From a virus, in the IMG/VR virus record IMGVR_UViG_3300009024_000029, positions 1-40,032 of that record: a DNA stretch of 40,032 nt, one strand, 5' to 3'. Of this stretch, positions 998-36,894 are shown one piece after another. The stretch's first letter is position 1. Every line of letters begins with the position of its first letter. Position numbers and translations under genes: made by a program. A model generated the notes under the pieces. It searched no databases. It saw nothing but the letters and a program-made list of their open reading frames with translations, and had not been told where the DNA came from.

Positions 998-1084
998 ATG
1001 TTAGAAATCTTAGGCATTACACTATTAGTTGCATTAATACAAAATGGCGACATTTTCTCATTATGCATATCAGGGTGTTCATAA
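998..1084 (+). CDS. 28-residue hydrophobic leader-like peptide upstream of RNase H
   Basis: The ATG at 998 follows an AAAAAGG Shine-Dalgarno-like sequence by about seven bases. The ORF ends with TAA at 1082-1084, one base before the ATG (1086) preferred for RNase H. The product is hydrophobic at its start (MLEILGITLLVALIQ) and contains two cysteines near its end. The promoter is only about 30 bases upstream, so this is the first translatable ORF of the transcript. The tight stop/start junction suggests coupled translation. It could be a leader peptide, a tiny membrane peptide, or a chance ORF. Confidence 0.45.
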   Translation: MLEILGITLLVALIQNGDIFSLCISGCS

Positions 1085-1085
1085 T

Positions 1086-2072
1086 ATGGCAACTCATATA
1101 TTAGTAGACACAGCAAATACGTTCTTTAGAGCTCGTCACGTAGTACGTGGTGATTTAGATACTAAAGTAGGTATGGCATTACACATTACATTGAGTGGTG
1201 TTAAAAAGGCATGGCAAGACTTTGATGCAGATCATGTTGTATTTTGCTTAGAAGGTCGTTCATGGCGTAAAGACTTTTATGAACCTTACAAGCGTAATAG
1301 ACAAGTTGCTCGTGATAAAATGACTGTTACTGAGAGTGAAGAAGATAAAGTCTTCTGGGAAATCTTTGACGAGTTTAAAGACTTTGTAACTACTAAAACT
1401 AACTGTACTGTTATGCGTCATCCGCAACTAGAAGCAGATGATCTTATTGCAGGTTGGGTACAAGCACACCCTAATGATAATCATGTTATTATTAGTACTG
1501 ACGGTGACTTTGCACAACTTATTGCACCTAACTGTAAACAATACAATGGCATACAAGACATTACTATAACACATGAAGGTTACTTTGATAAGAAAGGTGA
1601 TCGTGTAATTGATAAGAAGACTAAAGAAGTAAAGCCTGCACCGCAGCCTGACTTTATGTTGTTTGAGAAGTGTATGCGTGGCGACACAAGTGATAATGTG
1701 TTTAGTGCATACCCAGGTGTACGTAAGAAAGGCACTAAGAACAAAGTAGGACTTATTGAAGCATATGACGATAAGACTTCAAAAGGCTTTAACTGGAATA
1801 ACATGATGTTGCAACGCTGGACTGATCATGAAGGCGTAGAACATCGTGTACTAGATGACTACAATCGTAATGTTGTGCTATGTGACTTAACAGCACAACC
1901 TACAGATATTAGAGAGATTATTGACACAACTATTGCCGAACATGCAGTAGCAAAAGATGTTAAACAAGTTGGAATGCGTTTAATGAAATTTTGTGCTAAG
2001 TGGGATATGCAGCGCATTGCAGATCAAGCACAGTATTTTGCAGAGCCACTAAATGCAAGATACCCGGAGTAG
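1086..2072 (+). CDS. rnh: RNase H / 5'-3' exonuclease, T4 Rnh (FEN) family
   Basis: This is a flap-endonuclease-type nuclease like T4 RNase H, which removes RNA primers and short flaps from lagging-strand DNA. From the chosen start the product has 328 residues (T4 Rnh has 305). Seen: an N-terminal ILVDTANTFFRAR with the first metal-binding Asp, VVFCLEGRSWRKDFYEPYKRNR-like arch residues, QLEADDLIAGW, ISTDGDFAQL, and KCMRGDTSDN followed by a glycine- and lysine-rich helix-three-turn-helix part. These supply the acidic residues expected for two-metal catalysis. The frame is open 14 codons further to an ATG at 1044, but that ATG lacks a ribosome site and lies inside the leader ORF. The ATG at 1086 follows AGGGTG at a good distance and fits the family N-terminus. 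Confidence 0.9.
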   Translation: MATHILVDTANTFFRARHVVRGDLDTKVGMALHITLSGVKKAWQDFDADHVVFCLEGRSWRKDFYEPYKRNRQVARDKMTVTESEEDKVFWEIFDEFKDFVTTKTNCTVMRHPQLEADDLIAGWVQAHPNDNHVIISTDGDFAQLIAPNCKQYNGIQDITITHEGYFDKKGDRVIDKKTKEVKPAPQPDFMLFEKCMRGDTSDNVFSAYPGVRKKGTKNKVGLIEAYDDKTSKGFNWNNMMLQRWTDHEGVEHRVLDDYNRNVVLCDLTAQPTDIREIIDTTIAEHAVAKDVKQVGMRLMKFCAKWDMQRIADQAQYFAEPLNARYPE

Positions 2073-2865: not shown

Positions 2866-3154
2866 GAGCAGACCAAAACCAAAAATACTTTTAGAGTACG
2901 TAGATAAACAAACTTATCGTGCAGAACAGATTTTAGATGCGGAAGCAATATGGGCTGTGTTTTATAAAACTAAACCATTTAATCTTAAAAGCCTAAACGC
3001 TATTACAAATTACCCTGGACCAAAATATAAGAAAGTATCTTTTTCAAATCCAGGACATGCAATAAACTTATCCAAAAAACTTAACAGTTTATTCAACTGT
3101 GATGATTTTACTGTTGTTATGTTAACATCAGGCGAGATAGTTACAGACGAATGA
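2864..3154 (+). CDS. Conserved hypothetical protein of T4-like marine phages
   Basis: The product has 96 residues, begins MSRPKPKILLEYVDK, and contains IWAVFYKTKPFNLKSLNA, YPGPKYKKVSFSNPGHA and LSKKLNSLF. I recall closely similar short proteins in T4-like cyanophages, without a known function. The YPGPKYKK stretch is basic and could contact nucleic acid, but this is only a guess. The ribosome site AAGGA lies in the loop of a hairpin whose stem includes the start codon. The end overlaps the next gene by four bases (ATGA), suggesting coupling. Confidence 0.8.
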   Translation: MSRPKPKILLEYVDKQTYRAEQILDAEAIWAVFYKTKPFNLKSLNAITNYPGPKYKKVSFSNPGHAINLSKKLNSLFNCDDFTVVMLTSGEIVTDE

Positions 3155-3537
3155 ACTGGAAAGAAACATATACTAAAGTCTTTCTTAAACAACTTAACAA
3201 AACTGTAAACGATGCAGCTGTTTCTGAGTATATGCCTCTTTGGTGGCAAAATACAAGAGAGAAAACTTCCGGTGGATTGCGTTTAACTGAGCTTGGGTTT
3301 GATATAGTTAATCAAATTGATTTAGCAACATACGAAATACCATATCCAGCTGACATGCCTATTACTACACAGATCATAATCTTCTTAGACAAATTTATTG
3401 ACTGTCCTTACTATATTTCTAGAGGCAGTATATTCGTTACAAGCGAACGAAAGGCTGTTGAACTGGGTCTCTTTTCAGGAGATCTACGCAAGTACGGACT
3501 ATCCAAAGCATTAACTAGACAAAAAAAAGACAAATAA
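3151..3537 (+). CDS. Conserved hypothetical protein of T4-like marine phages
   Basis: The product has 128 residues. It contains MPLWWQNTREKTSGGLRLTELGFD, a pattern suggestive of a small winged-helix-like fold, then FLDKFIDCPYYISRGSIFV and LFSGDLRKYG, and ends in a basic tail rich in K and R. From memory the GGLRLT and LDxFIDxPYYI patterns recur in an uncharacterised family of T4-like cyanophages. The first four bases overlap the previous gene as ATGA. It is the last gene before the promoter at 3552. Confidence 0.8.
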   Translation: MNWKETYTKVFLKQLNKTVNDAAVSEYMPLWWQNTREKTSGGLRLTELGFDIVNQIDLATYEIPYPADMPITTQIIIFLDKFIDCPYYISRGSIFVTSERKAVELGLFSGDLRKYGLSKALTRQKKDK

Positions 3538-3551
3538 AGTTCCATTAACGG

Positions 3552-3580
3552 TTGACAACCGTCCTATTAGATCGTATAAT
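3552..3580 (+). promoter_or_regulatory. Sigma70-type promoter with an inverted repeat over the -35 box
   Basis: TTGACA (3552-3557) and TATAAT (3575-3580) are 17 bases apart. ACGGTT (3548-3553) and AACCGT (3557-3562) form a perfect inverted repeat with a three-base spacer that overlaps the -35 hexamer, as expected for an operator. It lies about 60 bases before the ATG of the AAA+ ATPase gene. Confidence 0.85.
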
Positions 3581-3638: not shown

Positions 3639-4727
3639 ATGGAAAACGTAGCTATTCGACAAATTACACCCAACAGAGCAAAGGGCAGTCTTTTTCACGC
3701 AATGAAAAAGAAACGTCCAGTGTTTTTATGGGGTCCCCCAGGTATTGGTAAATCTGAAATTGTTCATCAAATTGGTGAATCGTTAGAAGCCCATGTTACA
3801 GACATTCGTTTATCACTATGGGAACCAACAGATATTAAAGGTATTCCGTACTTTGATTCAAATGCAGGTACAATGGTTTGGGCTCCGCCAGCAGAACTTC
3901 CTACAGAAGAATTTGCAAAAAAACACAAATATATTATTCTTTTCTTAGACGAAATGAATTCTGCGGCTCCTGCTGTACAGGCGGCTGCATATCAACTTAT
4001 TCTTAATCGCAAGATTGGCACTTACAAACTTCCGGACAATGTTTTAATTGTTGCGGCAGGTAATCGTGATGCAGACAAAGGTGTTACATACAGAATGCCA
4101 GCACCGTTGGCAAACCGTTTTGTTCACTTAGAACTTACTGTGTCATTTGACGATTGGTTCCAGTGGGCTGTAGTAAACAATATACATGCAGATGTTGCTG
4201 GTTACTTACAGTTTGCAAAGAAAGACTTATATGACTTTGATCCAAAAAGTCCTAGTCGTTCTTTTGCAACTCCCCGTTCGTGGACATTTGTATCAGAGCT
4301 GTTAGATGATGGCTTAGATGCAGAAACCACAACAGACCTTGTATCAGGTGCCATTGGTGAAGGTCTTGCTGTTAAGTTTATGGCACACCGTAAAGTAGCG
4401 TCAACTATGCCTAATCCAACTGATATTTTAGATGGACAGGTAACTGAGTTGAAACAGAAAGAAATCAGTGCTATGTATTCCCTCACTGTTTCACTTTGCT
4501 ACGAACTAAAAGAAAGCTCAGACAAAAACGATAAGAAGTTTAATTCGAAAGTTAATAACTTTTTACGTTTTGCAATGGACAACTTCGAAACCGAGCTGGT
4601 AGTAATGGGTATGAAATTGGCGTTGACCCAATATGAATTACCAATTGATCCAGATGAAATTGAGTGTTTTGATGAGTTCCACGAGCGTTTCGGCAAGTAT
4701 ATTAAGGCCGCTCAAACAAGGTCTTAA
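3639..4727 (+). CDS. MoxR-type AAA+ ATPase
   Basis: The product has 362 residues and is an AAA+ ATPase of the MoxR type, a group that usually works with a von Willebrand factor A partner to remodel or load proteins. Seen: Walker A GPPGIGKS at 32-39, Walker B LFLDE at 101-105, sensor 1 VAAGNRD near 138-144, and an arginine-finger candidate in LANRFVHLEL (Arg160). The C-terminal third is helical and unassigned. GAGAGG lies upstream of the ATG. The gene has its own promoter, and the vWA/zincin partner follows 110 bases downstream behind another promoter. This pairing supports a two-component chaperone-like module. The substrate is unknown. Confidence 0.88.
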   Translation: MENVAIRQITPNRAKGSLFHAMKKKRPVFLWGPPGIGKSEIVHQIGESLEAHVTDIRLSLWEPTDIKGIPYFDSNAGTMVWAPPAELPTEEFAKKHKYIILFLDEMNSAAPAVQAAAYQLILNRKIGTYKLPDNVLIVAAGNRDADKGVTYRMPAPLANRFVHLELTVSFDDWFQWAVVNNIHADVAGYLQFAKKDLYDFDPKSPSRSFATPRSWTFVSELLDDGLDAETTTDLVSGAIGEGLAVKFMAHRKVASTMPNPTDILDGQVTELKQKEISAMYSLTVSLCYELKESSDKNDKKFNSKVNNFLRFAMDNFETELVVMGMKLALTQYELPIDPDEIECFDEFHERFGKYIKAAQTRS

Positions 4728-4739
4728 GGTGTGTTGGGT

Positions 4740-4768
4740 TTGGACGTTCCCGTACAAAAAACGTCCAA
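4740..4768 (+). promoter_or_regulatory. Hairpin between the ATPase and vWA genes
   Basis: TTGGACGTT (4740-4748) pairs with AACGTCCAA (4760-4768) over an 11-base loop, 13 bases after the ATPase stop codon. No T run follows, so it is not a classical terminator. It lies directly upstream of the next promoter and could be an attenuator, an RNA-processing site or a protein-binding site. Confidence 0.45.
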
Positions 4769-4774
4769 TTACTC

Positions 4775-4803
4775 TTGACTTTTATGTCAAAATACTATAT
4801 ACT
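4775..4803 (+). promoter_or_regulatory. Sigma70-type promoter with inverted repeat at the -35 box
   Basis: TTGACT (4775-4780) and TATACT (4798-4803) are 17 bases apart, with one mismatch in each hexamer. TTGAC at 4775-4779 is repeated inverted as GTCAA at 4786-4790. A second inverted repeat, TATAC/GTATA, spans 4798-4812. The ATG of the vWA/zincin gene is 34 bases further on. Confidence 0.78.
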
Positions 4804-4836
4804 TATAGTATAAACAATGCAGAGAGGACATAGCAT

Positions 4837-6120
4837 ATGAGCGTTGCGGGCAAACAACTTTGGACACCAGACCCAGATATTACAACTGAAGCATTAGATG
4901 CAATGCGAGTTGATGTGCTGGATAGAATTATTGTTGCACGAATTGGGCTTTTATTACGTCATCCTTTCTTTGGTAACATGGCTACACGCTTACGCATTAA
5001 AGCCGCAGACGATTGGTTACCTACTGCCGCAGTAGACGGTAGAAACTTATTTTTTAACACTCAGTTTTTTAATGCAATGTCAAATCAAGAAATTGAATTT
5101 GTTATTGCACACGAAATTCTACATTGTGTATTTGATCACTTAACTCGTAGAGACGATAGAGATCCAATGATCTTTAATATTGCAGCAGACTACATTGTAA
5201 ATAATATTCTTGTTAGAGATCGTATTGGCGATAAGCCTAAACTAGTTGATTGTTATCAAGACTTTAAATACGACGGTTGGGCATCAGAAGAAGTTTATGA
5301 TGACATATTCGAACAAGCTAAACAGAACGGTGAAGAATTTCTTAAAGAGCTTGGAGAATTATTAGACGAACATTTGGACTGGGAAGGCAACGGTGAAGAA
5401 GAAGGTGGTAGCGGCAATAATGGTAACGTAAGTAAATCGCAACCAAAATATTCTAAAGAAGAATTACGTGAAATACGTGATGAAATTAAAGAGAATATGA
5501 TGACAGCGGCGCAATCATCTGGTGCAGGTAATACACCTAAAGAAATTGAAAGAATGATTTCCCAACTTACAGAGCCTAAAATGAACTGGCGTGAAATATT
5601 ACGTCAACAGATTCAAAGTACTATTAAGAATGATTTTACATTTATGAGACCATCACGTAAGGGTTGGCATATGAATGCTATTCTTCCAGGACAAAATTTT
5701 GATGAAACTATTGATATATGTGTAGCTGTTGATATGTCAGGATCAATTGGCAATCAACAAGCAGAAGACTTTTTAGGTGAAGTGCAAGGTATTATGGACG
5801 AATATCAAGACTATAATATTAAGTTATGGTGTTTCGATACAGCCGTTTATAATGAAGCAGAATTTAGTGCAGACGGTGGTGAACGATTAGAAGAATATGA
5901 AATTATCGGTGGCGGTGGTACTGAGTTTGACTGTAACTGGGAATACATGAAAGAACACAATATTCAACCTAAAAAGTTTATTATGTTTACAGATGGTTAT
6001 CCTTGGGGTAGTTGGGGTGACGAAGATTACTGTGAAACAGTATTTGTTATTCACTCTAACTTTGATAGAAAATTACAGGCACCATTTGGTATAACTACTC
6101 ACTATGAGGATGCCGCATAA
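4837..6120 (+). CDS. vWA-like protein with zinc-metallopeptidase motif (DUF2201-type)
   Basis: The product has 427 residues and two recognisable parts. The N-terminal part has FVIAHEILHCVFDH, with the zincin HExxH motif at His92-Glu93-His96, followed by a conserved NIAADYIVNN helix. A charged, Gly/Glu/Asn-rich linker lies near residues 185-205. The C-terminal part has a von Willebrand A fold with the metal-site motif DMSGS at 299-303 and TDGYPW further on. This matches the predicted metal-dependent peptidases of the DUF2201/VWA-like group, which usually sit beside MoxR ATPases. AGAGGA precedes the ATG. Whether the peptidase site is active, and what it acts on, is not known. The next gene is coupled by TAATG. 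Confidence 0.85.
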   Translation: MSVAGKQLWTPDPDITTEALDAMRVDVLDRIIVARIGLLLRHPFFGNMATRLRIKAADDWLPTAAVDGRNLFFNTQFFNAMSNQEIEFVIAHEILHCVFDHLTRRDDRDPMIFNIAADYIVNNILVRDRIGDKPKLVDCYQDFKYDGWASEEVYDDIFEQAKQNGEEFLKELGELLDEHLDWEGNGEEEGGSGNNGNVSKSQPKYSKEELREIRDEIKENMMTAAQSSGAGNTPKEIERMISQLTEPKMNWREILRQQIQSTIKNDFTFMRPSRKGWHMNAILPGQNFDETIDICVAVDMSGSIGNQQAEDFLGEVQGIMDEYQDYNIKLWCFDTAVYNEAEFSADGGERLEEYEIIGGGGTEFDCNWEYMKEHNIQPKKFIMFTDGYPWGSWGDEDYCETVFVIHSNFDRKLQAPFGITTHYEDAA

Positions 6121-6401
6121 TGGTTAAACTCAAAGAACCAAATCCGTTAAATGTATTTAGGATTCGGCAAACTAAAGTTAAACCTCATCATTTTGAATCT
6201 ATAGCCATTCCTTACACTTATAATGTTGAAGAAGCGTTAAATAAATGGATACGGAAACATCTTAAAGGAAGGTTTCACGTAGGAAAAGTTTTAAAAGTAG
6301 ACGACCAGAATCAGATAAACAGCATGATAAATATTGGCTTTGAAGACGGAAAAGAACTTGCATACTTTATGTTAGCTTGTCCACTTTTAAAATATAAATA
6401 A
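6120..6401 (+). CDS. Small hypothetical protein coupled to the vWA/zincin gene
   Basis: The product has 93 residues and its start overlaps the preceding stop by one base (TAATG), which implies coupled translation and a possible shared role with the ATPase/vWA pair. It is basic, begins MVKLKEPNPLNVFRI, contains EEALNKWIRKHLKGRFHVG and ends in a hydrophobic strand (AYFMLACPLL). I do not recognise a family. A perfect TATAAATA late-type motif is embedded in its last codons. Confidence 0.7.
   Translation: MVKLKEPNPLNVFRIRQTKVKPHHFESIAIPYTYNVEEALNKWIRKHLKGRFHVGKVLKVDDQNQINSMINIGFEDGKELAYFMLACPLLKYK
6393..6400 (+). promoter_or_regulatory. T4-late-like promoter TATAAATA
   Basis: This is an exact match to the T4 late promoter core, overlapping the stop codon of the preceding gene and lying about 40 bases before the ATG at 6442. 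A second, weaker copy (GTTAAATACTA, 6411-6421) follows. It marks the change from early/middle-type to late-type genes on this strand. Confidence 0.6.
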
Positions 6402-6441
6402 CCAACGACAGTTAAATACTACTATTATTAAGGAGATAATT

Positions 6442-6702
6442 ATGTCAGAAGAAACTAAAGTAAACGAAACAGAAGCACCGGCAGCACCAGCACCTGATCT
6501 TACTGTTCAAGACTTAAATGGATTAAAAGCTATTATTGACGTTGCTAGTCAACGTGGCGCATTTAAACCAAATGAAATGACTACAGTGGGTCAAACATAC
6601 ACTAAGTTAGAAAACTTCCTGCTTGCTGTACAAGCATCGCAAGTACAACCAGAAGGTGGAGAAGAAACAGCGGCACCAGCAGAAGCTCCCGCAGGAGAAT
6701 AA
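6442..6702 (+). CDS. Conserved small hypothetical protein with Ala/Pro/Glu-rich ends
   Basis: The product has 86 residues. Both ends are low-complexity and rich in A, P and E. The centre reads DLTVQDLNGLKAIIDVASQRG followed by FKPNEMTTVGQTYTKLENFL, which looks like two helices. I recall near-identical cores in T4-like cyanophages, always uncharacterised. AAGGAG stands seven bases before the ATG, a strong ribosome site. The late-type motif upstream suggests late expression. The next ATG follows one base after its stop. Confidence 0.82.
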   Translation: MSEETKVNETEAPAAPAPDLTVQDLNGLKAIIDVASQRGAFKPNEMTTVGQTYTKLENFLLAVQASQVQPEGGEETAAPAEAPAGE

Positions 6703-6703
6703 T

Positions 6704-7300
6704 ATGGCACAACCATTAAAGCATATTGGAAGACATGTAGGTAGCAGAAAAAAAGTTGCGGTAGCATTTAGAGTGTTACCTGGCGAAGCAGACAATTGCT
6801 TAGTAGTACCTACAGAGTCATTAGATGCTGCAGAACATGATTCATTAATGACATTGATTGAATCAAATGCAGGTCAAAATGCAGAAGAATTAGCAGACGC
6901 AATGAACAGAGTAACATTACCGGATGGCATGAATATGTTAAAAGGTTTTCATAAGTATGGAAAATTATACAAAATGAAAACTGATGAAATTGAAATGACT
7001 CCTGATAATAAAAGCTCAGTGAAGTTAAGTGAACTTAACAAACTAATTGCTGAGCAAAAAGGAATTACAGTCGAAGATTTAGCTGTTAGTGGTACAAGTG
7101 GTCAACCTGTTGCGCCAGCAACAAGTGAAGCAATGCCAACAGCAAATACAGATGAGAAAGTGTTAGATGATGCTACACTAGCTGCTCAGTACCGTTCACA
7201 GGCAGATGCTCTATATAAAGAAGCAAAGAGTTTGAGAGAACAGGCAGAGGAGTTGGTCCCTACGAAAAGGAAGACCAAATCTAGTGCCAAAAAAACCTAA
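6704..7300 (+). CDS. Conserved hypothetical protein of T4-like marine phages
   Basis: The product has 198 residues from the ATG at 6704. An upstream in-frame extension would only overlap the previous gene. The N-terminal part reads MAQPLKHIGRHVGSRKKVAVAFRVLPGEADNCLVV, with a compact domain to about residue 110 that includes ESNAGQNAEELADAM and EIEMTPDNKSSVKLSELNKLI. The C-terminal part is a helical, coiled-coil-like stretch rich in A, E, R and K that ends in a very basic tail. From memory this family is common in T4-like cyanophages. A virion or assembly role is plausible but not shown. The end overlaps the next gene by 17 bases. Confidence 0.82.
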   Translation: MAQPLKHIGRHVGSRKKVAVAFRVLPGEADNCLVVPTESLDAAEHDSLMTLIESNAGQNAEELADAMNRVTLPDGMNMLKGFHKYGKLYKMKTDEIEMTPDNKSSVKLSELNKLIAEQKGITVEDLAVSGTSGQPVAPATSEAMPTANTDEKVLDDATLAAQYRSQADALYKEAKSLREQAEELVPTKRKTKSSAKKT

Positions 7301-7604
7301 AAACAAAAAACTACCTCCCGAAGTAATAACTCATTGGCCAGAAGTTTTTGACGAAATTGATATGAATGTAGTACCATTAGAGTATCTACATTCTATCAGA
7401 GTTACGTTTAAAGACGGTAAAGTGTGGGATATTGATCTTAATAGTCCTAAAAATAAAGAAGTCACTAGCGTACAAGATAGTCTAGATGAACTATTTGATG
7501 AATATGAAGATCAAATACAAAATGTAGACTTTCGACTAGACACCGACCGAGTTAAGAAAGATATTACCAAACGTACCCGTCGATTCCTTAAACTTGGAAA
7601 GTAA
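7284..7604 (+). CDS. Conserved small hypothetical protein with GTG start
   Basis: The product has 106 residues and starts with GTG, preceded by AAGGAAG at a slightly long distance. It opens with a basic, proline-containing arm (MPKKPKNKKLPPE) and continues with VPLEYLHSIRVTFKDGKVWDI and an acidic DELFDEYEDQI helix, ending with a basic KRTRRFLKLGK tail. It resembles, from memory, a small conserved protein of T4-like cyanophages. The 17-base overlap with the preceding gene suggests coupling. Function unknown. Confidence 0.78.
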   Translation: MPKKPKNKKLPPEVITHWPEVFDEIDMNVVPLEYLHSIRVTFKDGKVWDIDLNSPKNKEVTSVQDSLDELFDEYEDQIQNVDFRLDTDRVKKDITKRTRRFLKLGK

Positions 7605-7622: not shown

Positions 7623-7630
7623 CATAAATA
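7623..7630 (+). promoter_or_regulatory. T4-late-like promoter CATAAATA
   Basis: CATAAATA followed by CTAG lies 33 bases before the ATG of the fibre gene. The leader between them contains TATTATTACTAGGAG, similar in layout to the leaders at 6411-6436 and, on the other strand, 12542-12569. Confidence 0.5.
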
Positions 7631-7663
7631 CTAGTAGAAACTATTATTACTAGGAGTTAAAGA

Positions 7664-9595
7664 ATGGCTTTACAGATCAGACGAGGTATTGAGTCAGAAC
7701 GCACAGGTGTTGTATTCGCCGAAGGTGAGCTGGTCTATATTACAGATACCGATAAATTATATATAGGCGACAATAGTACCGCTGGCGGTATTGAAGTTGG
7801 GCCAAAAACATTATCCGAATTAGGTGCTGTTTCGCTAAGTGGAAATTTAACACTAGGCGGCAACAATATTGATGGAACTGGAAATATTAATATTACCGGT
7901 GATATTACAGCATCAGGAAACATTACAGCAGGCGGCAATATTGATATTGGTGATGCTGCAGATGATACACTTACTATTTCAGCTAAAGTAGACAGCGGTA
8001 TAACTCCGAATGCGGACGCTACATACGATTTAGGTTCAACTACATTAAAATGGAATAACATACACGCAGTAAGACTTGACGGTGACGTAGAAGGTAGTGT
8101 ATTTGGCGATGATAGCACACTATTAGTAGATGGTGTTAATAATAAAATTGTTGGTGTAGTAGATACAACAAGTATAAGAACAAGTGAAGATAGAATTGCA
8201 CTTGGTGATAGTGCTGGTGCAACCAATCAAGATAACGGTGCAGTAGCAATTGGTAGCTTAACTGGTACAGTAGATCAAGGTTCACAAGCAGTTGCAGTTG
8301 GTGTTTCTGCTGGTAGAGAAAGACAGGGTTATTATGCTACAGCACTTGGACGTTACGCTGGTCAAAATGATCAGGGTGTATCCGCAGTAGCAGTTGGCCA
8401 CTCGGCGGCTAGAGAATCTCAAGGTGTTGAAGCAATAGCAATTGGTAAGTTAGCAGGTGAAACTAACCAAGCCGCAAACTCAATTGTATTAAACGCAACA
8501 GGTAGTGCAGTAGAAAATACCACAGCAAGTAGTTTAGTAATTAAACCAGTACGTGATGCAGTTGGTACAACTGTAATGATGTACAACAATGCAAACGGCG
8601 AAGTAACACATACAGCAAGCCCTGCATTTGATTTACAAGGTGATTTAACTGGTAATGTAACTGGTAACGTAACTGGTGATGTAAAAGGATCAGGTGCACA
8701 AACAGTATTGGCGGCAAACACAGGTCCATCAGATGCGGCTTTAAGTGTAAGTACAGTTACAGCAACAACACTTTCAGGAACACTAACAGGCAATGTAACT
8801 GGTAATACAGCAGGTTATCACACAGGCGATGTTAAAGGTTCAGTATTTGGCGATGACAGTACTGTTATTGTAGATGCTGTGAATAACACATTAATTGGTA
8901 ACGTAACAGGTGATTTAACTGGTAACGTAACTGGCGACACAGCAGGTACACATACTGGTGCAGTAGTTGGTAATGCGGCAGGTGATCATACAGGCACATT
9001 TACAGGTAACGTGTTTACTGCTTTAATTGATAGTGCAGATTCAAGTGCTATTACAGTTACTCCAGCAGTAGTTATGAGTAGTGACTTAACTGTTGACAAT
9101 GCTGTAAGCATAGGTGGCATAACTGGCGTTGTAATTAACGATAATAACATTAGTGCATACAGTGCAAGTAACCCTACAAAACTTGCTATTAACAGCATAT
9201 GTGCAGATGCAAACGATTATACAACTGAATTAGTAATTGACAGTAACGTTAATGTAACTAACGACATGACTGTTACAGGTAAATTTACAGCGTTTGGCGA
9301 CCGTGCAATTACTGCAATTCACAGAACAGCATTAAGTGAAACAAACAGTGGTTTCTTTGTAACTGAATATGCAGGTTCAGTAACTGATGCGGCAGAGCTA
9401 CAAGACATTTCAAACTATACAATTAAAACTAAAATTGTAGAAGATGTTGCAGACTTTGGTACTGCTGTTAAATTTGCTAGTATGACAACTAGTGTTCGAA
9501 ATGCACTAACACCGGCAGCTGGTATGGTTGTGTTTAATACTACAGAGACAAAATTACAAGTATACACAGGTTCAGCCTGGGCCGACCTACACTAA
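7664..9595 (+). CDS. Tail fibre protein with Mtd-like N-terminus, YadA-like repeats and GNVTG repeats
   Basis: The product has 643 residues. The first 42 (ALQIRRG, AEGELVYITDTDKLYIGD) match the short beta-hairpin module found at the N-terminus of phage receptor-binding proteins and major tropism determinants. It is followed by GNITAGGNIDIG-type glycine-rich strands. Six 16-residue repeats of the form xAxGxxAGxxxQxxxA fill residues 178-273, like the left-handed roll of YadA heads. Residues 327-450 carry many GNVTG/GDVKG units. The C-terminus (GMVVFNTTETKLQVYTGSAWADL) is the familiar closing strand of phage fibres. It is therefore probably a trimeric, elongated fibre. AGGAG precedes the ATG. 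It is the only large fibre gene on this strand, facing the minus-strand tail operon. Confidence 0.85.
   Translation: MALQIRRGIESERTGVVFAEGELVYITDTDKLYIGDNSTAGGIEVGPKTLSELGAVSLSGNLTLGGNNIDGTGNINITGDITASGNITAGGNIDIGDAADDTLTISAKVDSGITPNADATYDLGSTTLKWNNIHAVRLDGDVEGSVFGDDSTLLVDGVNNKIVGVVDTTSIRTSEDRIALGDSAGATNQDNGAVAIGSLTGTVDQGSQAVAVGVSAGRERQGYYATALGRYAGQNDQGVSAVAVGHSAARESQGVEAIAIGKLAGETNQAANSIVLNATGSAVENTTASSLVIKPVRDAVGTTVMMYNNANGEVTHTASPAFDLQGDLTGNVTGNVTGDVKGSGAQTVLAANTGPSDAALSVSTVTATTLSGTLTGNVTGNTAGYHTGDVKGSVFGDDSTVIVDAVNNTLIGNVTGDLTGNVTGDTAGTHTGAVVGNAAGDHTGTFTGNVFTALIDSADSSAITVTPAVVMSSDLTVDNAVSIGGITGVVINDNNISAYSASNPTKLAINSICADANDYTTELVIDSNVNVTNDMTVTGKFTAFGDRAITAIHRTALSETNSGFFVTEYAGSVTDAAELQDISNYTIKTKIVEDVADFGTAVKFASMTTSVRNALTPAAGMVVFNTTETKLQVYTGSAWADLH
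8195..8482 (+). repeat. Six in-register 16-residue YadA-head-like repeats
   Basis: These 288 bases encode six consecutive units of exactly 16 residues: IALGDSAGATNQDNGA, VAIGSLTGTVDQGSQA, VAVGVSAGRERQGYYA, TALGRYAGQNDQGVSA, VAVGHSAARESQGVEA and IAIGKLAGETNQAANS. Positions 2, 4, 8, 12 and 16 are strongly constrained (A/G, G, G/A, Q/D, A/S). The period and the xAxGxxAG pattern match the left-handed beta-roll of trimeric adhesin heads. Confidence 0.85.
8642..9015 (+). repeat. GNVTG/GDVKG short tandem-like repeats in the fibre
   Basis: The segment encodes many LTGNVTG, GNVTG, GDVKG, TAGxHTG and VVGNAAG units of four to five residues. The corresponding DNA recurs as ggtaayGTAACtGGT-type copies. 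A longer unit, GSVFGDDST(x)5VNN, occurs twice, at 8090-8146 and 8834-8890. Such repeats build beta-helical fibre shafts and are prone to slippage or recombination. Confidence 0.75.
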
Positions 9596-9899: not shown

Positions 9900-12533
9900 T
9901 TAAAGAATTATCATACACTCAACTACTTTTTCTTCTTCAATAGTACTTGTAGTAAGTGCTATAGCAACTTTTTGTGCGCCGTCTTTAATTAGTACACCAT
10001 CATAACTTGCATAAAGTATATCACCTTTATTAACTGCTCCTAGTACACGAGTTGGTACACGACCTTTAAGTGCTATTGCTTGTCCGTCTGCACTTGCGTT
10101 CATTAAGTAAGCTGGATCAGTAGATATAATTCCTACTGGAAAATCGTTTGGTCCACATGCTTTAAGTTCGCTATCTTCATCTGCACTAACACATACTACT
10201 GTGCCTGGTGCTAATTCTTCGTTTGTTGTATATTTCTCAGCTAAGTCAGCAAAGTCTGCTTCTGTTGCTGTACCAATAAATTTAAATCCTGCTTCTAAGT
10301 CAATACCTGTAGATTTAACTTTACCAATTACAGTACCATTATGCGTAAATGTTGTATCGCCGCCGTTTGCTACTGCTACGCTACTATTACCATTTGATAT
10401 TGATGTAGAGCTAACACCAGCAATCGCACTATTTAAGTTAGATACTGTTGTATCAACTTCACCTTTACTATAAACATCTAAATTAGTTCTAGCAAGAGGA
10501 GCAGTTGTTGCGCCTGTACCACCATTTGCAATAGCAGTTACAATACTGTTAAAGTTAAAGTTAGTAGCATTAAGTGTTCCAACAGTTAAGTTATCAAACC
10601 AACCATCGTTTGCTGTACCTGATTCGTTTACGTGTCCTGTAAATCTAGTACTTGCTGTTATTATACTACCGTCTATAGTAGTAGCAGTAATATCATCTGA
10701 ACTAATAGGACCTACAGCAATAGCATTAGATGCATCTCGTGCAACTAATGAGTTTGAAGTTTTAGTTGTACTAGCATCAAGTCCTAATTGTAGTACTGCA
10801 CTTTCTGCGCCTGCACCGTCTAATACATTGTTTACATAAACATTAAGATAAGGATCACTGTTGTATGTTGATATATTTTGTACATAATTACCTGTAGTAT
10901 CTGTTCCTAAAGCAACACTGTTACTACCAGCTGTTAGTGTTAAAGTAACATCTTGCGAGCCATCTATTGTAACTTGTCCTGATAAATCACCGTCTACTGT
11001 TAATATTCTTGCAGTAGTCCATTTATTTGCTGTTGCGGCCGCACCGTTTAATGCACCTATAAATTCTGTAGCATATAGTTTTCCGTTGCTGTCTCTAACT
11101 GCAACTGTGTCTGGCTGTGCCGCACCGTCTGCAACTTGACCAACTCTATATTCATATGTATTTGCACCTGTAGCAACTTGTAGTGTTGCCGCTCTTGATG
11201 CTAGTCCACTAAATTGTGTTGCTGTAATATTACCTGCATTGTCTCTAGCAACTAGTGTGTTTGCTGTAGCAGTAGTTGCCGCACCAATAAATGTTGCTCC
11301 GTTGTCTACTTGTACACCATCTGCTTTAGTAACTCTACCTGTAAGCGCCGCTGTAGCGTCTGTGCTGTTGTATAAGTGCGTTCCGCGGAAACTAGTACCA
11401 AAGATGTCACCTACGCTATCTCTTGTTACAAGAGCGTCAAATGTGTTTCCTTTAGTAGCAATTTTGTATGTTCCGTCACTTAATACAGTATTTGCTTCGT
11501 CTGCTATACCTCTAAAGTTTACAGCATGTACTTCGTTCCAACGCTTAGTTGTAGAACCAATATCCATTGTGTTATCTGCATTTGGCATTGGGCCAGTTGC
11601 TGAAAGTTTTAATGGAATAACTGTTGAGCCGCCTGCGTCTTTAACTTTAAATGACATATCAGCATTTGTAATAGTTGACTCAAGTATTGTTTCGCCGCCG
11701 GATATTTTAACTAGTAATTCGTCGTTTGGTCCAATTAATAAACCATCATTGTCAGCAATATCAACTTGTGTAACAAACGTTGGGTTTGAACGTTGTACAA
11801 ACTCTGCCGCTAGTGTTCCACCTAATTGTAATGCATTTGAAACAGTACCATGTAATTGATAGTTACCTGTTGTAACTCCGCTGTTTGCATTTTGTGTATT
11901 AAGTAATGTAATACCTTTTTTAATTCTATCAAAGCCAGTAATTGGGTTTGAATCATCTAATGTAAATTCGTCATTACTTACTGTAAAGATAACAACGTCA
12001 TCTACGAAACCTTTTAAAATTCTGTGCTTGTATGGAGTATCGTCTGCTTGGCCTGCAAACAAGTTATCATAAACTTCAGCATCATCTACTGTTGTTTTAA
12101 CAGTTTGGTTGCCTTTTGGTCCAACTAGTACAAAAGGATCTCCTGATACTGCACCGTTATGTGCATATAGCTGACTTGTTACATCGTCCCACCATAAGTC
12201 ACCTTTGTTAACATTTGCCGCTGTAATTGCTGAACCGCTTGGCTTAGAACCAATGTGAACGTTTCCAAGGGGAACAAAAACGCTTTCACTATTACCATCA
12301 TATACTTCTATTTTTTTAGAAGTAGTGTTAAACCATAACTGTCCTGCTATTGGTCTTGGTGGTTGGTTTGCACCAGCAAAGTTTTCTAGTAAGTAAACAA
12401 AATTTTCATTTTGTATTTCGCCGTAACCTGCATAGTTTTTACCTATTAGTTTTAGGTCAGTTGTGTTGTCGATAGTACCATCTTCAACTACTGCTACGCT
12501 GTTATTACGAGTATTAAATATTGTATAAGCCAT
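9900..12533 (-). CDS. Tail fibre-like structural protein (paralog 3 of the tandem set)
   Basis: The product has 877 residues. Its first 200 or so share a pattern with the two upstream genes: V.DGTIDNTTDLKLIG.NYAGYGE, NFVYLLENFA, PIAGQLWF, then a GDLWWD strand and LVGP. The centre consists of fibre-like strands (VTIDGSQDVTLTL, VVARDSNGKLYATEF-type units) typical of phage fibres. The C-terminus (AEKYTTNEELAPGTVV from about 763, then GIISTDPAYLMNA and GRVPTRVLGAVNKGDIL) is a conserved fibre-tip module seen, from memory, in other marine phages. It is the last gene of the minus-strand tail operon, preceded by a 56-base gap with a late-type motif and an AGGGGATA-type ribosome site. Confidence 0.82.
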   Translation of the reverse strand: MAYTIFNTRNNSVAVVEDGTIDNTTDLKLIGKNYAGYGEIQNENFVYLLENFAGANQPPRPIAGQLWFNTTSKKIEVYDGNSESVFVPLGNVHIGSKPSGSAITAANVNKGDLWWDDVTSQLYAHNGAVSGDPFVLVGPKGNQTVKTTVDDAEVYDNLFAGQADDTPYKHRILKGFVDDVVIFTVSNDEFTLDDSNPITGFDRIKKGITLLNTQNANSGVTTGNYQLHGTVSNALQLGGTLAAEFVQRSNPTFVTQVDIADNDGLLIGPNDELLVKISGGETILESTITNADMSFKVKDAGGSTVIPLKLSATGPMPNADNTMDIGSTTKRWNEVHAVNFRGIADEANTVLSDGTYKIATKGNTFDALVTRDSVGDIFGTSFRGTHLYNSTDATAALTGRVTKADGVQVDNGATFIGAATTATANTLVARDNAGNITATQFSGLASRAATLQVATGANTYEYRVGQVADGAAQPDTVAVRDSNGKLYATEFIGALNGAAATANKWTTARILTVDGDLSGQVTIDGSQDVTLTLTAGSNSVALGTDTTGNYVQNISTYNSDPYLNVYVNNVLDGAGAESAVLQLGLDASTTKTSNSLVARDASNAIAVGPISSDDITATTIDGSIITASTRFTGHVNESGTANDGWFDNLTVGTLNATNFNFNSIVTAIANGGTGATTAPLARTNLDVYSKGEVDTTVSNLNSAIAGVSSTSISNGNSSVAVANGGDTTFTHNGTVIGKVKSTGIDLEAGFKFIGTATEADFADLAEKYTTNEELAPGTVVCVSADEDSELKACGPNDFPVGIISTDPAYLMNASADGQAIALKGRVPTRVLGAVNKGDILYASYDGVLIKDGAQKVAIALTTSTIEEEKVVECMIIL

Positions 12534-12561
12534 TCGTTAATATCCCCTATTACGATAATAG

Positions 12562-12569
12562 TATTTATC
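12562..12569 (-). promoter_or_regulatory. T4-late-like promoter GATAAATA (minus strand)
   Basis: On the minus strand the sequence reads CGATAAATACTATTATCG, a late-type core inside a CGATA/TATCG inverted repeat, 29 bases before the ATG at 12533. It lies in the only sizeable gap between the three fibre paralogs. Confidence 0.5.
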
Positions 12570-17680: not shown

Positions 17681-17688
17681 TATTTATT
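17681..17688 (-). promoter_or_regulatory. T4-late-like promoter AATAAATA (minus strand)
   Basis: On the minus strand AATAAATACACTAG lies 19 bases before the ATG at 17662 and overlaps the stop codon of the giant gene. It would let the 205-residue gene and the fibres be transcribed apart from the 15.6-kb gene. Confidence 0.45.
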
Positions 17689-20600
17689 TAGGTAAGTCAG
17701 TTGTTGCCTCGCGGATGAATTCAGCAATTGAATTATTTGCGTATCTTAACTGCTCCCCTGGTGTTTGCCACGTTTTTCCTATTTTTCTTACTATAACAAC
17801 CCTAGTACCTGTTACTGGGGCGTCTGCAAGTGTTACTGTTGCTGATGAATCTGTAATATTTAACGTAAACTCTGGTGCTAAAGTAATGTCGCCTTCTGGG
17901 CTATCTTTAGCAATAAGCTCTGTTGTTACAATTCCATTAGCATCAACTACTTGATTTTGGTACATACTAATTGAATTCTTACGTAGTCTACGTCCTGCTA
18001 CAAACACTTCAAACTCGTTTACCCCTTTAGTAGGGATCCAATCTAGCAATATTTGTGTACTTTCATCATCTAGTGCTATTGAACTTACCATTTCGTCTGT
18101 ATAAGGAATAGTTTCAGAATTACTTTGATCCATAATTTCTGTTCCTGCAGGGTAAGTATCAGCAGGTCCTGTTCCTAATGTACCTCTACGTAGTTGTCTT
18201 AATTCTTTTCCAACTACTTCAAAGTATTCAATTCTTTCTCCGTTAACAAATATTACGCCTGGAACATTTAGTTCTTTACTTGGTTGTGTAATACCTTGTG
18301 CGTCTGTAAGTTGAATTGCTTGATCTGATATACTTAACGGCTCTGCTAAGAAGTAAACATTTGCTTGGTTCAGTCTCTTATAGTGCGTTCTGTTAAGCAT
18401 GTCTTTAAACATTCTATATCCAAACTTTTCACTTGCTTTGTCAGCCGCAAAATGAATTACTTGTATTTTATCATTTGGTTTAACGGGTCTATCTATTTGT
18501 ACGTAATTATCCATTTTAACTAACTTGTAGTCAACGTTTGGAGTTAACAATGTTCCGTTTAAACTTATCCAAAGGTACGCAGTATCTACTGCTGGCGCAC
18601 GTAGTTTAACCAAGCCTTTTGTTAGTCTATTAAATTCATAATAGTCATCTGTACCAACTGTAAGTACACTACGTGAAACGTTAGTTTTTGTTTCCATTTG
18701 TATATCTTGTAGTTCGTGTCTATTAAATTTATATACATCAATTTGTTTACCATCTGCAGGTATGCTATCTAATACTAGTCTATCGCCTGCTTCAACAAGT
18801 GTTATACTTACAATCGATGATGCTGTTGCATTACTTGTTAAGCCTACAATTGGAATACTACTGTCAAGGTCAACTGCTTGGGATAGTCCTGGAACAGTGC
18901 CTACTACAACTAAGTTACCTGTACCAGTAGTAAATGATTTTACTGTTGCTGTATAAACTGTACTGTCTCCAGTTCCTATTTCTACAGTTTCGCCTGGTTC
19001 AAATGTACCTGTTACTGTTGGTAGTCCAATTAATGTATTTTTACTAAATTCATATTCTGCTGAATCTGTAATAACAATTTCTAAGTCATCGCCAGTTTCA
19101 CCTACGTTATCAAACAAAGTAACTGATGAGTTATTAAAGTTCCAACGATAGTCTTTTAGTAATACTTTTTTAACACCGTTAATGTATACATCAACTGCAT
19201 CTGGACTTAGACTGCTTGTTGGATACTGTGATCTATCTAATACATATTCACGTGATGTAGTGATGTACCATTGTTGTGTGTATCCTGGAAATAATATTTT
19301 ATCATCAACTTTAACAATAATGTTATGACTTAGTGGAAGCCTTGAAGCAGGCTCAGGTGACAATTCAAACTGTACTGTACTACCATCTCCAATAAATCTA
19401 TCAATAATTACTTCGCTATATCTTTGTATTGTTTCTTCATTAGTATCAAACAATGAGTAATAAACAAACGCATTATCGTTTGGCGGAATAACAAAGTCTA
19501 GTCCAACTAGTCCTGCTTTATCACCATAGGAACTATCTGTTTTAAATAATGATACTTGAGCATTTGCTCCGTCTACATTGATGTAACTTTGTATACCGTC
19601 TGACCATATCACACTTGTTACAAATGTTCTTGTTGTGCCGTCACCAATAAAGTGATCTGTGTCTAAAATTCTTTCTCCACTGCCTGCCATTGACAATACA
19701 TTTACTTTGTCTCCTGCTACTAGTGCATCTCTTAGAACTAATTTCTTATCTGTAAAGTTTATACTGTACTCTGGTGTTCCAACTACTGAACTATCAGATC
19801 CTGGAACGTCTTCGGATTGTAATATTTTTCCGTTAACTTTAACAATAGCACTGAATATGTTGTGTGGTAAAACATCTAAATCAAAGTTTACTTGTCCATC
19901 AGTTGCAGTATAGTTTCTTGTGCTAATTAAACTTCCGCCGTCTGCTGATCTATCGTAAACTTTTAAGTCTAATGTATCATGTAACTGTCCTGGAACTAAT
20001 TCTTCTGGACCTTTTGATGTTGTTGGTGTAACAAATCCGTCACCGTCAAGGTTAATATCACCTGCATCAAGTCCTGTTGCAGTACCATACTGTAAGTTAC
20101 CACCTTCAATTAAACTATCAAAGCCAATGCCTTCTGGTAGGAAACTACCATCGCTTGTAGATTTTCTAAAAGTAATTGTTGGATTAGAAGTAGCAAAGAA
20201 CTCTTCCCATTCCTCAACATTTTGTATATCAATATAATAGTTTCCGTTCTCAACTACATACTCAGTACTGTCTGAAGTAATTGATAACATAATTGCATTT
20301 GGATTACCTAATGAAAGAACTGTTGAACCATCACCTGCAATATAAGTTTTAGTACTACCGTCATAGTTAATATCATCAACTCTTGTAGCATTAACATATA
20401 CATTGTATATTGCATCTTCTTGTAAAGGTTTAGATAGTTGGAATCTAAATGTAGGACCAGTTGTTACAAAACTTTCATCATCAAAGTTTTCATCATATGA
20501 ATCCCATGAAGTAGTGTACCATTCTTTACTGTCCCAACCTAAGTCTTGACCAAATTCAAAACTCTTAACTTCAACGCCACCGTAGTCAACACCGTCCATT

Positions 20601-23600
20601 AGTTGTCCTAGGTCTTTACCTAACTGCCCATCAGTTGCATTGTAGAATAAGTTAATTCTATCTGCCGCTGTAAGCATACTAATATCTTTGTTGTACTCAA
20701 CTCTAATTATTGTTCCAACTAGTTGTGCATTAGTTAATGTAATATAACCTTGGTTACGAATGTGTGTTTTGTTTGTACTAAACAATTCTTTGTTATTGAA
20801 ACTATACTGACTGCTTAGTGCTTCAGTATCGTTAAAGAACACTCTAACATTAGTTCTTGTTAAGTCCATTGGAAACTTCAGTGTTAGTGTAAGTTCAGTA
20901 CCAGTACTTGTAAATAATTCTGTTTCTGGTAAGTTTAATATTTCTAAGTTTGGAGATAGTCTGTCAAACTTTTGTGTAATATTTAAACTTCTTACTTTTT
21001 TGTTTCCTAATACAATACTTACTTTAGGTGGTGTTCCGCCTTCGTCTTGTACACCGTCGATTGTAATAGTTGGAATACTTGTAAAGCCTGAGCCACTGTT
21101 AGTAATAACAATATTTTTAACACTACCACTACCTATATATGCACTTGCAGTTGCACCTGAGCCGCCGCCTCCAGTAATAGTTACTTGTGGAATATTAGTA
21201 TAGCCCGAGCCACCATTTTCAATTTTAATTTCTTCAACACTGTATGTAAAATTATCAACCCAATGCTTTTGTGGATACTGATCAATATTAAAGTTTATAC
21301 CTGATAACACTCCGTCATTAATTTTAACTTGTGGACTAACTATTTCGCCACGCTCTGTATCATAGAACGGCGATAGTTCAAAGTCTGTTACAACACTTTG
21401 AGTATTATCTGTCTTATCATATGCTGATAAGTATTCTCTAACTTTTGTTCTGTAAGGTTTAACTTCTTCAATGTACTTTTCAAAACTTGGTAAGTTATCA
21501 TTTTGATATGTAGTTTTTTCTTTTAGCTCGCCTACATTGTGTTTTGCTTTTATGAAACTTGTTTTAAATGCCCAGTCAACATAATTTTGTTCTGTAAACA
21601 CATAACGCAGTCCTGCAAAGAACAATTGGTTATATTCATTTGCAAGTTCGTCAACAAATAAATCATCTCTAATAGTTTCTAATATTTTACGTAACTCTAA
21701 TGATCCACCGTCTTGTGTATAAAGTTTTGATAGGAATTCTAGTGTACCGTCTTCACGTCCAACAGTTTTGTATCCTGAACTATAGTCTGGTGTATCTACG
21801 TTTACAATTTTTTCTAGTAATATCCAGCCGCCTGTGCCTACACTAGATACCTTAACAATGTCACCAATAGTATCTTGTATAATATTTAATTCGTATAGAT
21901 TATCAATTAAGTAGTCTACTGAAGTTAATTCACTGTAACCTTCTGCATACCAATCTTTGTAATTCCAATATTCTGCTACATCATACGACTGTTGATTTGA
22001 TATTGTCCAATTTCTATTTGTACTATCCCAAACATAAATTGACCACTTGCCACCTAGTGTACTATCTGACCTTACAAGGGTGCTAAGAGGTCTTACAGTA
22101 AGCGTTAAGTCGTCTGTGTAGTTAGTGCCGCCATTAACAACAGTAACGCTTGTAATAGCGCCTATGTTGTTTAAAACAGGTGTTAGTTCTAGGTCTGTTC
22201 CAGTTCCGTTAATAGTAATTTTTGGAAGATTTTTATAACCTCTACCTCTAGTTATTACCTTTATTTTGGTTACTGTGCCGTCTACACAAACAGGTTCTAA
22301 TACTGCTTGCTCTGCTCTAACAGTACCAACAAATCTTAATTCTGCTTCTGTATCAATAATACTATCAAACATGCCTGACAGTATTGTTGGGCGAGGATCT
22401 TTATTAGATAATTTTGTAAGATCTAAGTTATCAACCGCAAGCTCTTTTATAAGAACTCTGTTTACTCTTTCAATAAATTGTTTTAGTGCTTCTTTACGAT
22501 TTACAAACCAACTCTGTCTTGGTCTATTTAAGTTACCGTATTTTTGTTTTATACTTAATGTTGGATCTGGTACTGCTCTGCCATACTTGTCAGTTCCGAT
22601 TAAACTATCAAACCATTTCTGTTCAATACTTGATTTAGGTTTACTTGTTTCAAATCCGTCTGTAACAATTTGATATTCTGTATGAATATTATTATCTTGA
22701 TTTTCAATAGTCCAGTAACGGAAATTAATTGCAACATCTGTATCGCTAACTAAGTTATTACAGTTATATAAAACAAATCTATCATTGCCAAGTATAGTAA
22801 CGAATTTTAATTTCTGTCCTGCAGGGTCTGTTATGATATTTTGTATATCATATGCTGTTAAATTTCTACCTTCAATTTGTGGTAGTACCTTAGTTGCTTT
22901 AACCCAGAAGTAATATTTTGTAGTAAACACTTGTCCAACACTATCATATATTTCTTGTGTTGCATATTTTGTATCGCCATATTTAGAAGTACCACTTATA
23001 CCTAATGCTGTGCCTCTATTAGTATCTGCTAAGTTATCCCATGCTGACGGTAATATGTTTGACTCTACCCACTCGTAAACATCAATACTTGCGCCTTCTG
23101 CAAGTTTGTTAAATGTATTTTGTGAGTATGTTATTGAACCTTGATGATAGTCAATGTATTTTACTGTACTTAGGTCCCACCATAGTTTACCTTTATTTCT
23201 ATCGTCCCAAGCAATGTACTGTTCTTTATTATTAGTAAAGCCTACATTATAATTTGCAGGATCATAATATGTTTTGTATGATAATTCTTGTTCTGCTGTG
23301 CCAGGTATCTTACCTAATATAGGATCAAGTATATCAAGTCTTGTTAGCATATTATTTTGTTTAGTGTCGTAAACAAAACTTCCTCTAAACTTGTTTAGGT
23401 CTGCAGGATCAATTGGTTCTCTGTAAACTGACCAAGTGCTGTCAATATCATCTTTGATGTATACTGCTACCTGACCTTGAATATTTCCTGTAACGCCTAG
23501 TGCAGGTAAACCTACTAGTATTGTGTTGTTGTTTACAATAGCGTTCTTGCCAAAGTTTTTAACATTAAAGTTTGAATATTTTAAACGCTGTCCAAACACA

Positions 23601-36861: not shown

Positions 36862-36886
36862 ACTTTGCTTCCTTTATATGTTACAG

Positions 36887-36894
36887 TATTTATT
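36887..36894 (-). promoter_or_regulatory. T4-late-like promoter AATAAATA (minus strand)
   Basis: AATAAATACT on the minus strand lies 26 bases before the ATG of gp6, in the 59-base gap after gp25. It differs from the T4 core by one base and shares the CT that follows the core at other sites. Confidence 0.5.

Follow-up and report, generated by a model that had tools for sequence, protein, structure and literature searches.

The virus record analysed here, a stretch of 40,032 bases that we refer to as the window, encodes a MoxR-type AAA+ ATPase (moxR) followed by a protein that joins a metallopeptidase-like domain to a vWA domain (vwa). We propose, with a probability of roughly 0.55, that the two products form a remodelling machine, powered by ATP and equipped with its own metallopeptidase, that acts before the late phase of infection, and that they do not serve chiefly as a virion-assembly chaperone. 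The pair is real, functional-looking and conserved, yet of an already known type, having been reported in phages before (Iyer et al. 2021, PMC7824862), and it is therefore not the unusual find for which the sequence-only reading had taken it. What is new is the evidence for conserved promoters and a third gene that is limited to one lineage. The features of the window are as follows.

940-968: sigma70-type promoter of the exonuclease gene, the second perfect site, kept in 76% of relatives
1083-2069, plus strand: 5'-3' exonuclease, followed by several small genes
3552-3580, plus strand: sigma70-type promoter of moxR, TTGACA-17-TATAAT, 12/12
3639-4727, plus strand: moxR, MoxR-type AAA+ ATPase of 362 amino acids, PHROG 1297, relative of phage N4 gp24
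4775-4803, plus strand: sigma70-type promoter of vwa, TTGACT-17-TATACT, 10/12
4837-6120, plus strand: vwa, 427 amino acids, NH2-terminal DUF2201_N metallopeptidase-like domain and COOH-terminal vWA domain (DUF2201), PHROG 1314, relative of N4 gp25
6120-6401, plus strand: lineage-specific protein of 93 amino acids, overlapping the vwa stop by 1 nucleotide
6413-6420, plus strand: T4-type late-promoter motif TAAATACT, upstream of the gene at 6442
6442-7604, plus strand: further small genes downstream of the 93-amino-acid gene
7625-7632: TAAATACT, before the gene at 7664
7664-9595, plus strand: fibre-like gene
12560-12567, minus strand: TAAATACT, before the gene at 12533
36885-36892, minus strand: TAAATACT, before the gene at 36861

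The coordinates and lengths that had been given for moxR, vwa and the 93-amino-acid gene proved exact. The claim that moxR encodes a complete AAA+ ATPase was likewise borne out. Its product contains Walker A (GPPGIGKS, residues 32-39), Walker B (...FLDE, ending at 104-105) and the sensor-1 GN (141-142), and the Walker motifs, the sensor-1 Asn and the Arg that follows are invariant or near-invariant among 88 homologs. This Arg (R160 by our count) fits an arginine finger in the alignment, and by Walker A, Walker B, sensor 1 and this candidate finger the protein belongs to the MoxR-type AAA+ ATPases. It matched the Pfam family AAA_3 (PF07726) at 32.7 bits (cut-off 27), the match to bpMoxR being below the cut-off (20.1 bits against 27). 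The region of the helix-2 insert has a typical-looking sequence, and the nearest solved relative by sequence is midasin.

The second protein carries an HExxH motif (HEILH, residues 92-96) together with the MIDAS motif DMSGS (299-303), as had been noted from the sequence, and both are conserved in 91 homologs. The domain order, DUF2201_N (138.3 bits, cut-off 23.2) followed by DUF2201 (52.6 bits, cut-off 26.4), is that of COG3864-like DUF2201 metallopeptidase-vWA proteins. Zinc-site and MIDAS residues are intact. Across the 91 homologs the patterns HExxH...D...N and D-x-S-G-S...T...TD are kept, with the H, R, D and N downstream of HExxH invariant or nearly so; in an alignment of 41 sequences that included bacterial homologs, H92, E93, H96, H101, D118 and N122 as well as D299, S301, S303, T362 and D386 on the MIDAS side were invariant. 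Given that they are kept across 88 and 91 homologs, respectively, the motifs of the MoxR and vWA proteins are not due to chance. The full pattern HExxHx4Hx2R was present in 169 of 176 distinct vWA proteins, and HQxxH replaces HExxH in that of phage Atu_ph07 alone (L116, 6223-7512). This substitution predicts a dead peptidase with metal ligands kept in the published type example, so that peptidase activity would not always be needed.

An AlphaFold model of the vWA protein (mean pLDDT 80, pTM 0.57) places HExxH on a helix at residues 83-98 and D118 on a helix at 110-127, a predicted arrangement that is compatible with a zincin-like active site with a putative third ligand. Residues 292-423 of the model form a vWA fold. 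A Foldseek comparison of the COOH-terminal half with the PDB returned vWA domains, with the MIDAS domain of midasin among the best, and sequence profiles showed the NH2-terminal half to resemble selecase MJ1213 and projannalysin. The label "HNH endonuclease" attached to PHROG 1314 was considered and rejected: no HNH Pfam match was obtained, and the label is unsupported because the DUF2201 domains account for the protein. It has been copied to this metallopeptidase-vWA family in many RefSeq phage records (among our loci L105, L108, L111, L113, L114, L245 and L246, in addition to 4837-6120 of the window), and this widely repeated error is corrected here.

The two genes travel together. In tblastn searches of isolate phage records, moxR was found in 846 and vwa in 814, with matching host tallies for the two (Escherichia 214/214, Pseudomonas 112/112, Klebsiella 70/70). 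When 19 isolate records were sampled for linkage, weakest matches included, 17 had both genes intact and within 10 kb of each other. The moxR and vwa genes of Listeria phage LPJP1 (L243, 7680-10531) are adjacent but split over several frames, as a result of either gene decay or sequencing errors. The one exception was Vibrio phage SRILMA (L242, 8007-9116), in which a distant MoxR lacks a DUF2201 partner beside it and the adjoining gene is unrelated. In the rV5-like phages CM1 and Mydo, the genes lie approximately 4-5 kb apart on opposite strands. Of 103 viral loci, 101 carried both genes, and in the remaining two the sequence is cut at vwa. Bacterial assembly contigs were scanned with an alignment of closer relatives, a 10-member diverse alignment being too divergent, and a same-strand MoxR near vwa was found in 44 of 50 loci, some of which are phage contigs. 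Homologs are thus linked both in isolates and in bacterial assemblies and are not found widely without each other, in agreement with the proposal of a true two-part module.

This module is not specific to marine phages. Its carriers include the laboratory phage N4, the roseophage DSS3phi2 (an N4 relative), rV5-like phages, RaK2, Munch, PA5oct, S-TIM5, PBS1, G, Atu_ph07, SCTP-2 and Phosso. Lytic phages with the pair number in the hundreds. Most of the annotated genes around it in the isolates that were sampled serve DNA replication, nucleotide metabolism or RNA repair.

Given that baseplate and tail genes are present on its minus strand, the window derives from a contractile-tail phage; the tail gene block also holds an open reading frame of 5,207 amino acids (17684-33307, minus strand). 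Related blocks were found on contigs of up to 236,751 bp (L063), and a full phage block occurs on L127 (PBPT01000016.1), a 335-kb contig assigned to the bin of a Neomarinimicrobiota genome; the contig sizes point to what is probably a marine jumbo phage lineage. Another full phage block lies on a contig binned with a Puniceispirillum genome (L126, JADHOR010000039.1). L126 and L127 are probably phage contigs mis-binned into bacterial assemblies. Upstream of moxR is a gene for 128 amino acids (3151-3537), whose position is kept in RaK2 and Phosso (22-23% identity).

The ATG of the 93-amino-acid gene shares one base with the TAA of vwa (TAATG), confirming the overlap that had been described, and an overlap of -4 or -1 is kept in 53 of 109 relatives. 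Among 103 marine viral loci, 102 contained the gene and one was truncated. It was missing from isolates, from relatives of N4, rV5 and RaK2 and from bacterial loci, so that the proposed three-gene neighbourhood is confined to one marine lineage. The protein gave no family match in Pfam, PHROG, NCBIfam or PADLOC and, a single chance-level match aside, none among 50,697 phage records at a threshold as lenient as E=10. A structure model (pLDDT 87) predicted a beta-alpha-beta-beta-alpha fold, for which a comparison with the PDB gave nothing below E=0.4. In Klebsiella phage RaK2, the block consists of a g3151-like gene, moxR, vwa, g7 (PHROG 13789) and g8 and is without the 93-amino-acid gene only. 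The absence from an otherwise similar block indicates a lineage-specific insertion, and from these comparisons the gene is best read as a lineage-specific addition rather than a core part of the module.

Two small genes of Phosso downstream of vwa showed weak similarity to the 93-amino-acid profile (hhalign, 74% and 22% probability), so that a distant, fast-evolving third component is conceivable. The best fold match was to a protein of phage BcepSauron (TM 0.52, E 0.08), a phage without DUF2201_N. These matches were insufficient for us to accept the gene as a general core component. Small proteins at the conserved third-gene position in other lineages (L128, 94 amino acids; L130, 73 amino acids) gave no score against the profile. 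The suggestion that the small protein is a general adaptor or target is not supported by this distribution. An obligate three-gene complex in which it acts as adaptor or substrate would be consistent with the stop-start overlap, with the near-universal presence of the gene in the marine loci and with the Phosso similarity; we nevertheless consider it unlikely, in that RaK2 retains the neighbours on both sides without the gene, the phage records provide no counterpart and the best fold match comes from a phage that lacks the peptidase-like domain.

Evidence for the time of action comes from the promoters. The best site within 120 nucleotides upstream of each gene was scored against the sigma70-type consensus, with a threshold of at least 10/12, and compared with shuffled sequence. 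Such a site was present in 80% of 128 distinct upstream regions of moxR (6.2% of shuffles) and in 93% of 104 distinct upstream regions of vwa (5.1%), although the counts are not independent because the loci share ancestry. The separate sigma70-type promoters claimed for the two genes are therefore conserved. The corresponding value before the exonuclease gene was 76% of related loci (5-6% in shuffles), whereas sites were found in only 0-5% for g2079, g2864, g3151, the 93-amino-acid gene and g8; g7, at 10%, was close to the 8% obtained for its own shuffles.

The late genes appear to be marked differently. The T4 late promoter core TAAATAC preceded the fibre gene in 84% and the gene at 9900-12533 in 100% (n=9) of relatives, compared with 0-1% for the exonuclease gene and moxR; it also preceded vwa in about 12%. 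All four sites of TAAATACT in the window, a T4-type motif that relatives share, are located 22-31 nucleotides upstream of genes. The site at 6413-6420 is a probable marker of the end of the early unit in the window phage, although it is weakly kept (8% of relatives) before the gene at 6442. The sequence TATAAATA was rejected as a late promoter: it is depleted in the window (1 match on both strands, 6.7 expected), and the shorter TAAATAC is the conserved motif. The simplest reading of these motifs is that host sigma70 would activate moxR and vwa along with the early or middle genes, the tail genes following at a later time. With sigma70-type promoters on the pair and the late motif on the tail genes, early or middle action is favoured over a role in assembly, and the promoters together with the replication and nucleotide-metabolism neighbours indicate action before the late phase. 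The early or middle expression that had been suggested thus gains support by inference from promoter conservation.

The pairing of MoxR with a metallopeptidase-vWA protein was described for group 2.2 jumbo phages by Iyer et al. 2021 (PMC7824862), who proposed that it takes part in virion assembly, including peptidolytic processing. The Atu_ph07 pair (ASV44729.1/ASV44728.2) is a direct sequence relative of the window pair: both proteins are homologous, with like domain order, and the genes are adjacent and co-oriented, so that the window pair belongs to the set of adjacent ASV44729/ASV44728 homologs described there. The window lineage differs in keeping the catalytic Glu and in adding the 93-amino-acid gene. 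A MoxR pair was named in the 2007 paper on 0305phi8-36 (PMC2147016), and N4 gp24 and gp25 appear in PMC2784036 as an AAA ATPase and a vWFA protein with no function assigned. N4 gp24/gp25 (Schitoviridae) share the PHROG and Pfam families of the window pair and lie adjacent in the pre-replication gene region, but N4 is a podophage with a dCTP deaminase gene after vwa in place of the 93-amino-acid gene. RavA-ViaA of E. coli likewise combines a MoxR ATPase with a vWA partner; no Pfam or NCBIfam family for the RavA LARA domain or the ViaA helical region was found in either window protein, the window partner is a DUF2201 metallopeptidase fusion, and the window MoxR is shorter (362 amino acids). Midasin/Rea1, the closest solved AAA relative by sequence, with its MIDAS domain among the best vWA fold matches, differs in being a single giant eukaryotic polypeptide for ribosome assembly without a peptidase. 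No experimental study of the function of the pair was found in the open-access literature searched; the CRISPRi-ART paper covers T4, T5, SUSP1 and PTXU04, not N4, in its genome-wide screens, and MoxR is absent from its main text.

The only published proposal that we found, in which the pair is a chaperone for folding or assembling proteins of the tail or head, with structural proteins processed by the peptidase, was made for exactly such an architecture, and experimental precedent for a viral MoxR-vWA complex exists in the archaeal virus ATV, whose MoxR p618 binds the vWA protein p892 and virion proteins (PMC4124505). The gene types correspond to those of the window, but the ATV partner lacks a peptidase domain (PMC7824862), and the ATV protein is part of the virion and has been connected with tail growth outside the cell. 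In addition, an Hsp20-labelled gene adjoins the pair in S-TIM5, and the MoxR of PA5oct bears an "ESI-MS/MS" note, which may mean detection in virions and which contributes to our regarding assembly as a serious rival. Against it, the conserved promoters of the marine lineage are of the sigma70 type rather than late and challenge the assembly role proposed for the group 2.2 pair, the pair is shared by podophages (N4 group) and myophages with little tail architecture in common, and the neighbouring genes are mostly replication or nucleotide genes. We therefore view virion assembly as a possible but clearly less probable function. With regard to takeover versus assembly, the promoter evidence leans towards pre-late action.

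Two other roles are suggested by bacterial MoxR-vWA pairs. A chaperone for metal insertion or enzyme activation, comparable to CoxD/CoxE or MoxR proper, that supplies an enzyme of phage or host (for example one of nucleotide metabolism) with its cofactor would correspond to a known job of such pairs (summarised in PMC7159879) and to the thymidylate synthase or deaminase genes near the pair in several phages; the absence of a constant metalloenzyme neighbour and of an explanation for the fused metallopeptidase-like domain makes this role improbable. Bacteria also possess ternary conflict systems (VMAP, iSTAND, FtsH, beta-propeller) built on MoxR-vWA pairs (PMC7159879), and PADLOC gave weak partial matches to the AAA domain of MoxR only. 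No full PADLOC match was obtained, with zero matches for the vWA protein and bpMoxR under its cut-off, and neither a conserved third component nor an effector gene was found; moreover, lytic phages carry the pair far more universally than they do a typical accessory defence gene. A phage-carried defence or counter-defence system, among the roles that had been suggested, is thus very improbable.

In the preferred reading, that of a pre-late remodelling machine, the products of moxR and vwa would act as one unit. MoxR would form an ATP-driven AAA+ ring, presumably a hexamer, and, as is known for the family, hydrolysis of ATP by the ring would pass force to a client bound by the vWA protein. The MIDAS metal site may hold an acidic residue on the client, like the MIDAS domain of midasin, and, after remodelling by the ring, the client, or else an internal linker, would probably be cut by the zincin-like domain. 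Host-type sigma70 promoters would turn on moxR and vwa separately in the marine jumbo-phage lineage. Given that these promoters accompany early or middle genes, the client is most likely a transcription, replication or nucleotide-metabolism complex of host or phage. The 93-amino-acid protein, a later addition that would be co-translated with vwa, may tune the machine or merely share its mRNA. A more specific version, which we put forward only tentatively and consider rather doubtful, is that of an early takeover protease-chaperone that dismantles or processes a specific replication or transcription complex and that is steered by the small protein in this lineage. If true, this would represent a new class of phage takeover protease-chaperone, common to N4-like and jumbo phages.
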